From IMG/VR virus record IMGVR_UViG_3300046690_000230, positions 1-64,000 of that record: a DNA stretch of 64,000 bases, one strand, 5' to 3'. Numbering within the stretch: the stretch's first letter is position 1; each line of letters starts with the position of its first letter. This DNA is from a virus. Below, piece by piece: positions 2,489 to 32,350 of this stretch. The notes beneath the pieces are model-generated. The model made no database searches, was not told the DNA's origin, and was given only the letters and a program-made list of their open reading frames with translations. Position numbers and translations under genes: made by a program.

Positions 2489-3100
2489 CTACTTCACCTC
2501 AAAACTGGTAATTATAAATCTGCCGAAAGTTGGACGAAAATCGCCAAGCCCAATCAATTTACCAGCCGATTGAATGGCATCGTTCAATAATGCCGGAGAA
2601 ATGTACTCAGGCAGTAACACCTGCAATCGCACAGAGATTTGCCAGCCAGCTTTCAGCGCCGGCCTGTGACGGGTAATGGCGTTGCGCTGCACCTGCACCC
2701 GCCGCCTGTCGATGTAGTCCCAATCTTTTAGCCCCGTGTCGCAGAGTTCGTCCAGGCAAGTCACGCCCGCTTTGAATAAGTCCATAGCCGACTTGCGTGG
2801 TGAGCGTGGGTCTTGCTTGTACTTGGCTGCATGAATCACCGACATTCGCAGGTATTCCGATGGAATGGCGATGTTATTGTTATCCAGGCGATAGACATAG
2901 GATTCCACGTCATCGGTCTTTTTGGCCTTGCTGCCTTTGGCTGCATTGGCCTTCGCTTCCACGCCGTCAACCGACCAGCGATGAAAGAGAAACGCCGCGA
3001 TGCCTTGAATTGAAACCTCTGCAATATAAGGCTCAAGAATTGCAAACTGACCATCATTGCTTACTGCATTTAGTTCAGCTACCGCTGCTGATTTTGCCAT
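2489..3100 (-). CDS. Conserved-looking early protein with RAMP-like features (203 aa)
   Basis: The start at 3100 (MAKSAAVAEL) has GGAG at good spacing; the ATG six bases upstream sits too close to it. The order is a first strand (IAEVSIQGIAAFLFHRWS), a basic linker (AAKGSKAKKTDD), IAIPSEYLRMSVIHAAK, then DPRSPRKSAMDLF, and a C-terminal strand-helix-Gly-rich unit ending AGKLIGLGDFRPTFGRFII. The last element resembles the Gly-rich loop of RAMP/Cas7-fold proteins, but I could not test this. It lies directly downstream of the 5-bp array in the transcript and between the nuclease and small DNA-binding genes, which suggests nucleic-acid binding. Confidence 0.6.
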   Translation of the reverse strand: MAKSAAVAELNAVSNDGQFAILEPYIAEVSIQGIAAFLFHRWSVDGVEAKANAAKGSKAKKTDDVESYVYRLDNNNIAIPSEYLRMSVIHAAKYKQDPRSPRKSAMDLFKAGVTCLDELCDTGLKDWDYIDRRRVQVQRNAITRHRPALKAGWQISVRLQVLLPEYISPALLNDAIQSAGKLIGLGDFRPTFGRFIITSFEVK

Positions 3101-3120
3101 GCACATTCTCCTTTTAGATT

Positions 3121-3735
3121 TAACCTCACCCTACCCAACCTAGCCGTTCCGTGCCGAACCGTACCTTGGCTTGCCGCACCTCATCCAACCGTTCCTCACC
3201 GGACCAGACCCGACCTAACCAGAGCACTCCCGGCCCGTCCGTGCCTTACCTTGCCAAACCGGACCGCTCCGCACCATGCCTAACCTAACCTTGCCAAACC
3301 CGACCTAAACAAACCGAACCTCACCAAACCTTGCCGAACCACGCCCCACCATGCCGCGCCAAGGCTGACCTCACCTGACCGCTCCAAGGCCGCGCCTTGT
3401 AGGAGTCCGACCAATCTCTGGCCAGACTCCGACAAAACGCCTACCTCACCGCACCTGGCCGAACCGCTGCTTACCGCACCAGTGCTTGCCTAGCCCATCC
3501 CGACCACATCCTTCCTTGCCCGACCACAACTTGCCATTCCCGACCTGAACTTGCCTGAACTAACCTCTCCACGCCTCACCAAACCCTGCCATGCCGCACC
3601 CTTACTCGCCACGCCTCAGACTAGCTAACCGGACCAAAACCCACCGCACCTTGCCTGACCAAACCTGACCGCACCTCGCCCCGACTAGCCACACCTAGCC
3701 TTGTCCCGCCGTACCTTGGCCAACCTCGCCAAACC
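3121..3735. repeat. Pentamer-period array, NNDCC x 123 (non-coding)
   Basis: Split into five-base steps from 3121, the tract has the form NNDCC (D is A, G or T). By hand count 95 of 123 steps end in CC, the base before CC is never C, and steps such as TAACC, TTGCC, GCACC and AAACC recur in no fixed order. The phase never slips over 615 bp, including across a central 45-bp interruption with a hairpin. The transcript of the flanking minus-strand genes would read (GGHNN)n. Stops are frequent in every frame, so it is not coding. It fills the gap between the exonuclease stop (3737) and the Shine-Dalgarno of the 203-aa gene (about 3108). Confidence 0.95.
3402..3430. other. Hairpin at the centre of the pentamer array
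   Basis: Arms 3402-3413 and 3419-3430 pair at 10 of 12 positions around a 5-base loop (GGAGTC outermost with GACTCC). The hairpin lies in the only stretch without regular NNDCC steps (3396-3440), which is exactly nine pentamers long, so phase is kept on both sides. The array midpoint is 3428. An origin, processing or protein-loading site is possible. No T-run follows, so it is not a simple terminator. Confidence 0.6.
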
Positions 3736-3736
3736 T

Positions 3737-4561
3737 TTATTGAGTGGCTTCCCATGCAGATTGTTTTTCTTCCAACCACTCCCAAAGTGCCTTTACGTGA
3801 AGAAAAGTCTCCATAGTTTGAGCCTCATCATCTGCCTTAACCGCTTCAAATGATGGGTCAGTCAATACTTTAGGAAGCCGCACAATGTAGCCGCACTCAG
3901 GACTTCCATGGCCCATTTCTCTAACAGCGGCTCGGTAGGCTGCATTCTGAAGATGACTTTCTGAGTAAATGGCCTTAGAAGTTTTCCAGTCGATGACCGA
4001 CAACCTACCGTTTACTTTGGCCAAAAGATCGAGCGTGCCGGCGTATTTGTACTTGTGCGACCAGATGACCTGTTCACTGGCAATAGGCTCTAAATCGACG
4101 CTCTTGGCCCATTCCTGCCAATGACCGAAGGCCATCCTCACGGCAGGATTTACTAGGCTGACTTCCTGCTTGAAGGGCAGTCCCATGCGCAGGTTTATCT
4201 CATTTTCAATCGCGTGATGGACCGTCGTGCCAATCTCTCCAGCCTTGCTCAGTTCCTTCTGCGAGGCTTTCGTCTCGCCCAGCCTCGTGTTCAAAGTTAA
4301 TTTCCAGCTCTCCTGGGGCATCAGTTTCTCCCCATAGGTCGCCACTGCCATGCGGTACGCTTCCTCGATCACCATCTCCCGTTCCACCTTGGCTGCCCAG
4401 TTCACTAGCGCGGGCTTGCCAATACAGGACAAGATCGTGGTAACACTGGGATAAAGCTCGATTCCAACCGTCCCCCCTGGCATCGGCTCGAAGTTCGCCT
4501 TCGGAATCTCGTAGAACCGGCCCCGTCGAGTTTGTCGCCTTGCTTCTGTCGTTATTGGCAT
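3737..4561 (-). CDS. RecB/Cas4-like PD-(D/E)XK exonuclease
   Basis: The 274-residue protein carries the exonuclease motifs in order: GTTVHHAIE (His at about 115-116), GTLD with Asp at about 178, IDWKTSK with Asp191 and Lys193, and the Q-x3-Y motif QNAAY at about 205. This is the complete catalytic set of the RecB nuclease family used by phages for recombination and end resection. The start at 4561 is chosen over one ten codons upstream because AGGAGG lies eight bases before it. It sits with an SSB-like gene and the array, suggesting a recombination or replication module. No Cys cluster is seen. Confidence 0.85.
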   Translation of the reverse strand: MPITTEARRQTRRGRFYEIPKANFEPMPGGTVGIELYPSVTTILSCIGKPALVNWAAKVEREMVIEEAYRMAVATYGEKLMPQESWKLTLNTRLGETKASQKELSKAGEIGTTVHHAIENEINLRMGLPFKQEVSLVNPAVRMAFGHWQEWAKSVDLEPIASEQVIWSHKYKYAGTLDLLAKVNGRLSVIDWKTSKAIYSESHLQNAAYRAAVREMGHGSPECGYIVRLPKVLTDPSFEAVKADDEAQTMETFLHVKALWEWLEEKQSAWEATQ

Positions 4562-4722
4562 ACATTGTTCCTCCTCAAATGTTCCCACCAATCCGTTCTT
4601 TCTCCACCCTCTTCATTCCATCCGCAAGAGCAGCAAACCCACATCGCCACACTCCACACGCCACCACCATTCATGTTTACTTGTGGTTCGTGTTTTTCCA
4701 TTGTTTCTTCTTTGATTTCCAT
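4552..4722 (-). CDS. Small Cys-containing protein (56 aa)
   Basis: The gene lies between the SSB-like and exonuclease genes and overlaps the latter by 10 nt. The product contains VCCSCGWNEEGG followed by WWEHLRR, like one half of a zinc knuckle. The start is uncertain: 4722 or 4701, both with weak Shine-Dalgarno sequences. Function is unknown. Confidence 0.5.
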   Translation of the reverse strand: MEIKEETMEKHEPQVNMNGGGVWSVAMWVCCSCGWNEEGGERTDWWEHLRRNNVCQ

Positions 4723-4732
4723 AAAGATTCTT

Positions 4733-5260
4733 TCAAAATGGCACTTCTTCTTCATCTGGCGGTGCGTCGTACTCTGGTTCCTCTACTTCCGGTTCAGGCT
4801 GCGTCGGCGGCACGTACCCTGCCCTGTGAATCTCCCTCTCGTAATCCTCCGCGAACAACTTCTGCGCCATCTTTGACGAAGGAACCACCGCCGTTACATT
4901 GACCCACACGCTTCCGTCATCTCCCACATTATGCGAAAGGCTTAATTGAGCGTTCGCGCCTAGCAGCTTTTCTATATCGAAGAGTTTCAATTCCTGTGAT
5001 GTGAATGGCTTTCCCCGCCAGCTCTCTAAGTCCTTGCGAAGATTGGCTTTCTTTCCCAGACTTGGCGTGTACCGCTTGTTTACCAGGAAACGGCGGCCCC
5101 TTTTGTCGGTTTCGGCCAGTTGCCACACTACCTTGACCTTCACTTGCGGCCCCCACTTCTCCGACTCCACCACCCCAAGGTCAACCACATCGACACAAAC
5201 CGCGTCATGGAGTCCTTGCGGCGCTGTCTCGTACTCTTTCTTCTTGGCGTAAATCGGCAT
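4733..5260 (-). CDS. Single-stranded DNA-binding-like protein
   Basis: The 175-residue protein starts MPIYAKKKEYETAPQG and has the strand-rich core GLHDAVCVDVVDLG, WGPQVKVKVVWQL and a KRYTPSLGKKANL element seen in phage replication-associated SSB-like proteins. It ends in a Pro/Glu-rich tail with the tip DEEEVPF, which mimics the acidic hydrophobic tip by which SSBs recruit partners. The neighbouring exonuclease supports a recombination or replication role. The start overlaps the upstream stop as TGATG. Confidence 0.7.
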   Translation of the reverse strand: MPIYAKKKEYETAPQGLHDAVCVDVVDLGVVESEKWGPQVKVKVVWQLAETDKRGRRFLVNKRYTPSLGKKANLRKDLESWRGKPFTSQELKLFDIEKLLGANAQLSLSHNVGDDGSVWVNVTAVVPSSKMAQKLFAEDYEREIHRAGYVPPTQPEPEVEEPEYDAPPDEEEVPF

Positions 5261-31314: not shown

Positions 31315-31343
31315 AATATATAAGGGGTTCATAGGTATGTCAA
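31315..31343 (-). promoter_or_regulatory. Promoter of the HNH gene
   Basis: On the minus strand TTGACA (31338-31343), a 17-bp spacer and TATATT (31315-31320). The ATG at 31307 lies eight bases after the -10 box. Confidence 0.65.
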
Positions 31344-32350
31344 GATGCTTAGTTTCTGGGGGTGCAGGATTTCTGGGCAGCCATGTCGTAGACCATCTCA
31401 TCGCGGCAGGGCATGAAGTAGCGGTTATTGATGATCTATCAGGAGGGTTTCGTGAAAACATCCACTCGCAAGCGCGATTCTACCAAGGCTCGATCACGGA
31501 CTCGGTCTTTGTTGAACAAGTCTTTAACGAATGTAAGTTCGACTTCGTTTACCACCTCGCAGCCTACGCTGCTGAGGGCCTCAGTCACTTTATCAGGAGC
31601 TTCAACTACCACAACAACGTCATCGGCTCCGTTAATCTTATCAACAGTTCCATACGTCATAGTGTCAAGTGCTTTGTCTTCACGTCGTCCATCGCGGTCT
31701 ATGGGTCGGCGCAAGTCCCAATGACTGAGGACATGACGCCGGCTCCAGAAGACCCCTACGGAATAGCGAAGTATGCGGTGGAGATGGACTTAGCAGCGGC
31801 TCATCGTCAATTTGGTCTGCCTTACATCATTTTCAGGCCACACAACGTCTATGGAGAGCGACAGAACATTGGTGACCCATACCGCAATGTCATCGGTATC
31901 TGGATGAACCAGATTCTAAAGGGTGAGCCTTGCACTATTTTTGGCGATGGCCAGCAGACTCGTGCTTTTACACACATTTATGATGTAGCGCCGATTATTG
32001 CATGGGCGCACGAATTTCCTGCAGCTTACGGCCATGTATTCAATATTGGAGCTGATTTACCCATAACCGTAAATTACTTGTTTGAAATGGTTCAACGGGC
32101 TATGGATATTCCCGCAGAAAAGATTCATCTTCCAGAAAGAAAGGAAGTGAGACACGCTTTCAGCGAACATTCCAAGGTTCAATTCTTTTTTAATCCCAGG
32201 CCCTGGATTAGTTTAGAGAAAGGACTTCAAAAAATGGCGATATGGGTAAAACAGCATGGCTCGCGCCAGACCAAACCATTTGCCAATCTGGAGTTGGAGA
32301 ATGGTCTTCCACCATCATGGACGAAGGCTCGCGAGCAGGTGCTTTCGTGA
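31337..32350 (+). CDS. NAD-dependent sugar epimerase/dehydratase
   Basis: An extended short-chain dehydrogenase: GGAGFLGSHV (Rossmann Gly motif, residues 8-17), VIDDLSGG, FTSSIAVYG (catalytic Ser) and DPYGIAKYAVE with the Tyr-x3-Lys pair, then FRPHNVYGERQ. This is the profile of UDP-glucose 4-epimerase-like enzymes, which provide nucleotide sugars for glycosyltransferases. The N-terminus overlaps the HNH promoter. AAGGGG precedes the ATG. Confidence 0.9.
   Translation: MSRCLVSGGAGFLGSHVVDHLIAAGHEVAVIDDLSGGFRENIHSQARFYQGSITDSVFVEQVFNECKFDFVYHLAAYAAEGLSHFIRSFNYHNNVIGSVNLINSSIRHSVKCFVFTSSIAVYGSAQVPMTEDMTPAPEDPYGIAKYAVEMDLAAAHRQFGLPYIIFRPHNVYGERQNIGDPYRNVIGIWMNQILKGEPCTIFGDGQQTRAFTHIYDVAPIIAWAHEFPAAYGHVFNIGADLPITVNYLFEMVQRAMDIPAEKIHLPERKEVRHAFSEHSKVQFFFNPRPWISLEKGLQKMAIWVKQHGSRQTKPFANLELENGLPPSWTKAREQVLS

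Follow-up and report, generated by a model that had tools for sequence, protein, structure and literature searches.

A pentameric tract between two minus-strand genes

This study examined the tract at positions 3121-3735 of a window comprising 64 kb of a 66.2-kb IMG/VR viral record. Read on the minus strand, the tract begins 1 nt past the stop codon of an exonuclease ORF, and it ends approximately 20 nt ahead of the start of a minus-strand gene encoding a RAMP/Cas7-like protein of 205 aa (2489-3106), designated vipr here on the basis of a PDB sequence match and a predicted fold. The upstream neighbor (3737-4591, minus strand) encodes a PD-(D/E)XK exonuclease (phrog_298, PF12705) that is probably the recombination nuclease of the phage. 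The same minus-strand block includes a match to NF046043, "phage replication initiation protein, NGO0469 family," at 4733-5260 (E 3.5e-37), and the phage Tunturi_1 carries a single-strand DNA binding protein and an exonuclease in a comparable block.

An exact recount agreed with the hand count given in a preliminary description of this DNA: 123 pentamers keep one phase from 3121 on, 95 of them end in CC, and C is never the third base of these 95 units. Counted as dinucleotides, 95 of 124 CC in the tract share a common phase. The autocorrelation proposed in that description revealed identities of 0.49-0.51 at lags 5, 10 and so on to 30, versus 0.19-0.33 at the other lags. The best 200-base stretch of the tract held in-phase CC in 36 of 40 units, compared with 11-12 of 40 (CC or GG) in the best 200 bases elsewhere in the 64-kb window. 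The tract contains 59 different pentamers and yielded only weak TRF calls, which ruled out a simple tandem repeat produced by slippage, as the description had held; its non-coding character was likewise upheld, with no ORF reaching 60 aa inside 3121-3735. No similar DNA was found among 50,697 phage records, no Rfam match was obtained at E values up to 1, and a TRF tandem-repeat scan, which detects head-to-tail copies only, found no CRISPR repeat-spacer array in the whole window.

Because both flanking genes lie on the minus strand, an RNA from the tract would read GGY-NN. The early operon named in the preliminary description would be a putative one, suggested by flanking genes that all have this orientation. 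On this strand GGY predominates and GGA is a minor form, in agreement with the (GGHNN)n transcript proposed previously: GG is present in 95 of the 123 units, and the third base is T in 66, C in 36, A in 15, and G in 6, such that Y occupies this place in 102 units and is missing from 21. About ten of the 28 units without GG (CC on the strand shown) belong to a hairpin of 21 bp and 49 nt at 3392-3440 (minus strand; -38.6 kcal/mol, z -5.85), which interrupts the array and yet retains its phase, leaving 59 units on one side and about 54 on the other. This hairpin is perhaps a tail, a punctuation mark, or a processing element.

The vipr gene and arrays at homologous loci

The ATG at 3100, which is preceded about 8 nt upstream by AAGGAG, is the likelier start of vipr, and the ATG at 3106 is a possible one. 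The sole PHROG match of the 205-aa protein was phrog_4652, an unannotated family, and its relatives at 50-79% identity came from viral contigs, MAGs, and one named phage, DSL-LC04. A single PDB protein matched the sequence, namely 36pp_D, "SUSP1 Vipr protein" (E 3.1e-5). When the family profile was used, the match to 36pp_D improved to E 2.8e-11 across positions 28-198 and included the glycine-rich loop, where the conserved AG(R/K)L(I/V)G.(G/A)DF.PT(F/Y)GRF of the family aligned with AGNLCGVGDWRPRFGRF of SUSP1 Vipr. An AlphaFold model of the window protein (mean pLDDT 75.8, with low confidence in the glycine-rich loop) had type VII Cas7 and Csm3 subunits as its best PDB folds (Foldseek E 1.3e-5), and VIA-align superposed the model with Cas7/Csm3 over 160 residues (Z 10.8, rmsd 4.6). 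On the strength of the SUSP1 Vipr sequence match and the Cas7/Csm3 fold match, the product of 2489-3106 is assigned to the Vipr family as a RAMP with a predicted RRM core.

We compared 118 loci carrying a vipr homologue. Arrays with GG at period 5 lay near the gene in 112 of them, upstream, downstream, or on both sides; 277 arrays were on the strand of vipr, and 6 were on the opposite strand. Opposite-strand arrays were located at L125 6913-7107, L134 4215-4339, and L192 4728-4807 and 6657-6746 (reverse-complement coordinates). An exonuclease homologue was near vipr in 2 of the 118 loci; the arrays thus track the vipr gene and not the exonuclease, and a role of the exonuclease as a VIPR accessory is unsupported. 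The earlier proposals that selection holds the GG spacing and that related phages would keep arrays at the same gene were right, and the opposing case, in which both flanking genes are kept and the period is lost, did not arise. No neighbor of the window vipr was conserved across the 118 loci, and no vap gene was recognised.

The closest relative, L124, lies on a 63.7-kb contig with a capsid protein 91% identical to that of the window and has a 60-unit array at the same upstream position. This contig is the only one of 31 having the window's capsid gene, many of which are fragments, to carry vipr; with this limit, VIPR looks like an accessory module. The 123 units of the window are long but not alone, since the L172 locus has arrays of 116, 30, and 84 units around vipr. 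The nearest named relatives of the capsid protein belong to phages of Tunturiibacter (Acidobacteriota), at 32% identity, and a guess from this similarity is that the window phage perhaps infects Acidobacteriota. Within its structural gene block, the window also encodes a nucleotide-sugar epimerase-like protein (31337-32350, plus strand; phrog_540, E 5e-63).

The window array had one strong in-phase hairpin and no repeated structured 3' tail, and no tails resembling the SUSP1 pseudoknot were recognised between its units. Hairpins between array segments were found in L116, L118, L184, and L196. Those at L184:6653-6698 and L196:5333-5414 differ in sequence and are alike in shape, which suggests a covarying punctuation element. 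The layout on an Alicyclobacillus sendaiensis contig (L118:4565-5830) is the classical VIPR one: three distinct vrRNAs, 16-18 units long, have structured tails that resemble one another. No Rfam family reached the gathering score in 14 relative loci, and hammerhead-punctuated arrays were therefore not seen.

Matches of the NN strings to other DNA

VIPR (Viral Interference Programmable Repeat), a relative of CRISPR known from a recent preprint, comprises a phage-encoded Vipr protein and vrRNAs of alternating GGY/NN pentamers, which bind dsDNA through N1N2-x-N3N4-x pairing, that is, with a 1-nt skip, and thereby repress rival phages (PMC13142463). Seven types (I-VII) are set by Vipr phylogeny, and the two systems studied were the SUSP1 and P. 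fulva prophage type II systems (PMC13142463). In a mismatch-tolerant comparison, we matched the NN strings of every array to fetched DNA, first 3.1 Mb and later 4.5 Mb, and used skips of 0, 2, 4, and 5, reversed order, and 40 shuffles of the NN order as controls for a skip of 1. The results revealed top scores of 28, 21, 20, 20, 19, and 19 for skip 1, whereas the other skips and the reversed order never reached 19; six real segments scored at least 19, compared with a shuffle mean of 0.05 and a maximum of 1. The mismatch-tolerant score was needed because a test of exact runs by itself gave just a modest enrichment (14 versus 4-7).

Several of the matches fell on conserved motifs. The L155 array matched NRTRPAMKAGWQA and the L172 array matched KKSDNIESYVY, both of which are conserved motifs of rival vipr genes, and in both cases the match was in frame with the skip at codon position 3. 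At five sister loci, the L104 array matched the DNA that immediately precedes vipr. These findings support the noncontiguous 1-nt-skip code in a clade of at least 118 Vipr loci, beyond the two systems of PMC13142463, and suggest that the guides aim at conserved codon motifs of rivals, namely vipr itself and replication genes. Such an aim would account for the placement of the skip at the wobble base.

One segment of an L172 array matched the vipr genes of many relatives. In the viral contigs L150 and L153, each array, read with the 1-nt skip, matched the genome of the other with scores of 20 and 21, an apparent case of reciprocal targeting; both contigs also encode proteins distantly homologous to the capsid protein of the window. 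One guide each from a Thermomonas locus and an Alicyclobacillus locus had no match in the family genomes.

For the window array, matches in related phages did not exceed the controls, and the 4.5 Mb of related sequence held no full-length unequivocal target. Its one exact 8-unit match among related sequences fell in the primase-helicase gene of L392, a phage contig that itself carries VIPR; by itself this match is at chance level (approximately 0.2 expected, by estimate, with controls also reaching 16). A scan of IMG/VR with this 8-unit pattern found 112 stretches, compared with 8 and 31 for two other 8-unit windows of the tract, a difference that may be partly due to base composition; none of the matches of these two windows extended. 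The next unit upstream also matched in 66 of 111 stretches and one further unit in 12, giving ten exact units over TRRVLYRLP[ED], and the longest ORF was in the frame that places the skip at codon position 3 in 69 of the 81 matches examined (60 in sense frame S0 and 9 in A0, where the phase is less secure); because the matches are homologous, these frame and extension counts are not independent and amount to one family. The matched gene encodes a Toprim/AAA_25 or DnaB-type primase-helicase (phrog_239).

The predicted guide comprises units 98-107 (AC CG CG GT CT TA CG CT CC GA; 3196-3245, minus strand), corresponding to the codons T R R V L Y R L P [E/D]. Although this candidate was chosen after a chance-level 8-unit match, its extension makes it likely that phage primase-helicases are a real target family of these units. 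The TRRVLYRLP[ED] motif is absent from the window, and self-targeting would therefore not be expected; among the fetched relatives it occurs in L392 only.

A probable guide RNA array and its alternatives

With a Vipr gene adjoining it and the same kind of array at 112 of 118 homologous loci, the tract almost certainly encodes the guide RNAs (vrRNAs) of a VIPR system that the phage carries. Directly demonstrated were the array itself, the homology of its neighbor to Vipr, the RAMP fold, the co-occurrence, and the 1-nt-skip match statistics of the clade. In the proposed mechanism, the tract would be transcribed from the minus strand, jointly with vipr or just ahead of it, into an RNA of repeated GGY-NN. 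Vipr, as a small Cas7-like RAMP, would coat this RNA with presumably one subunit per 5 nt, using GGY as an anchor and presenting NN; the successive NNs would pair with DNA as N1N2-x-N3N4-x, one base being skipped each time, and the pairing would block transcription of rival-phage genes. RNA loading, dsDNA binding, and silencing are taken from PMC13142463, by analogy with which the window copy would work in the same manner, and the guide of units 98-107 would be directed at primase-helicase genes of other phages. The preliminary description had pictured a multimer reading GG every 5 nt on RNA or DNA. RNA and a multimeric reader are favored, with a Cas7-like Vipr encoded next door; what that picture missed was the message in NN. 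Positions 1-2, which it regarded as free, do take all 16 dinucleotides, but they would be the functional content that specifies DNA targets.

T4 gp32 regulates its own synthesis by binding its own mRNA, and the Cas7-like neighbor might similarly bind its own leader solely for self-regulation, the NN bases being meaningless. The array does lie directly upstream of vipr on its strand, and arrays are near vipr in nearly all relatives; however, many relatives have them downstream or on both sides, and when read with the 1-nt skip the NN strings find matches in other DNA far in excess of the shuffles, several of them at in-frame conserved motifs. We consider an RNA operator of this type very unlikely. 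A second alternative is a regulator unrelated to CRISPR, such as a TRAP-like multimer or another RNA-binding protein with a 5-nt period; the preliminary description had guessed at a multimeric reader and compared the spacing with that of TRAP. The trp RNA-binding attenuation protein (TRAP) binds repeats at 5-nt spacing and thus shares a fixed RNA motif at this interval with the window array, but it is an unrelated protein whose spacer bases carry no information. The protein co-occurring with the arrays is instead a RAMP matching the solved Vipr chain, and the scanned neighbors gave no TRAP-like family, which makes this reading exceedingly improbable. The same slight chance is given to a DNA-level element, that is, a replication origin, a packaging site, or the concatemer-end repeat array to which the tract had been likened. 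The tract is long, GC-skewed, and non-coding, and it adjoins recombination and replication genes, but the 277:6 strand bias relative to vipr and the accessory look of vipr among the 31 capsid-gene contigs, many of them fragments, argue against an origin or an end.

Like the window, the VIPR systems of PMC13142463 are phage-borne and have a Vipr homologue with GGY/NN arrays flanking its gene on its strand, and like the window clade they have a 1-nt-skip code and apparent targets in rival VIPR loci and rival phages. In contrast to their vrRNAs of approximately 100 nt, each with 9-16 units and a structured tail, the window has 123 nearly continuous units and one hairpin. It further differs from these systems in that its Vipr is only weakly similar to that of SUSP1, about a sixth of its units are non-GGY at the third place, and no vap is recognised. 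The backbones of class 1 CRISPR systems (Csm3 and type VII Cas7) share the protein fold and, in principle, would share RNA coating with a periodic unpaired base; their period is 6, whereas the window system would use 5 nt of guide per 3 nt of target, with no CRISPR array in the window.

PMC13142463 mentions staggered arrays with overlapping vrRNAs, and by analogy overlapping vrRNAs would fit the 123-unit tract. We tentatively propose, with rather less than even confidence, that this clade reads overlapping guides off one long, nearly tail-less array of more than 100 NN units in a single phase, with the hairpin as punctuation; these guides would be directed at codon motifs conserved in rival vipr genes and in primase-helicases, with the skip at the wobble position, and one guide would cover whole gene families.

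The tract is a real and strongly constrained feature that VIPR explains in kind, represented here by a member with a long array from a phage group that is little known. VIPR was first reported in 2026, and one of its guide arrays was rediscovered here independently from raw sequence. For the window clade, the analysis provides an independent confirmation of the code and a plausible target. If the window phage is acidobacterial, the carrier range of VIPR may widen, and if the proposed overlapping reading is true, the long, nearly tail-less array would be a distinct VIPR architecture with broad-spectrum guides.
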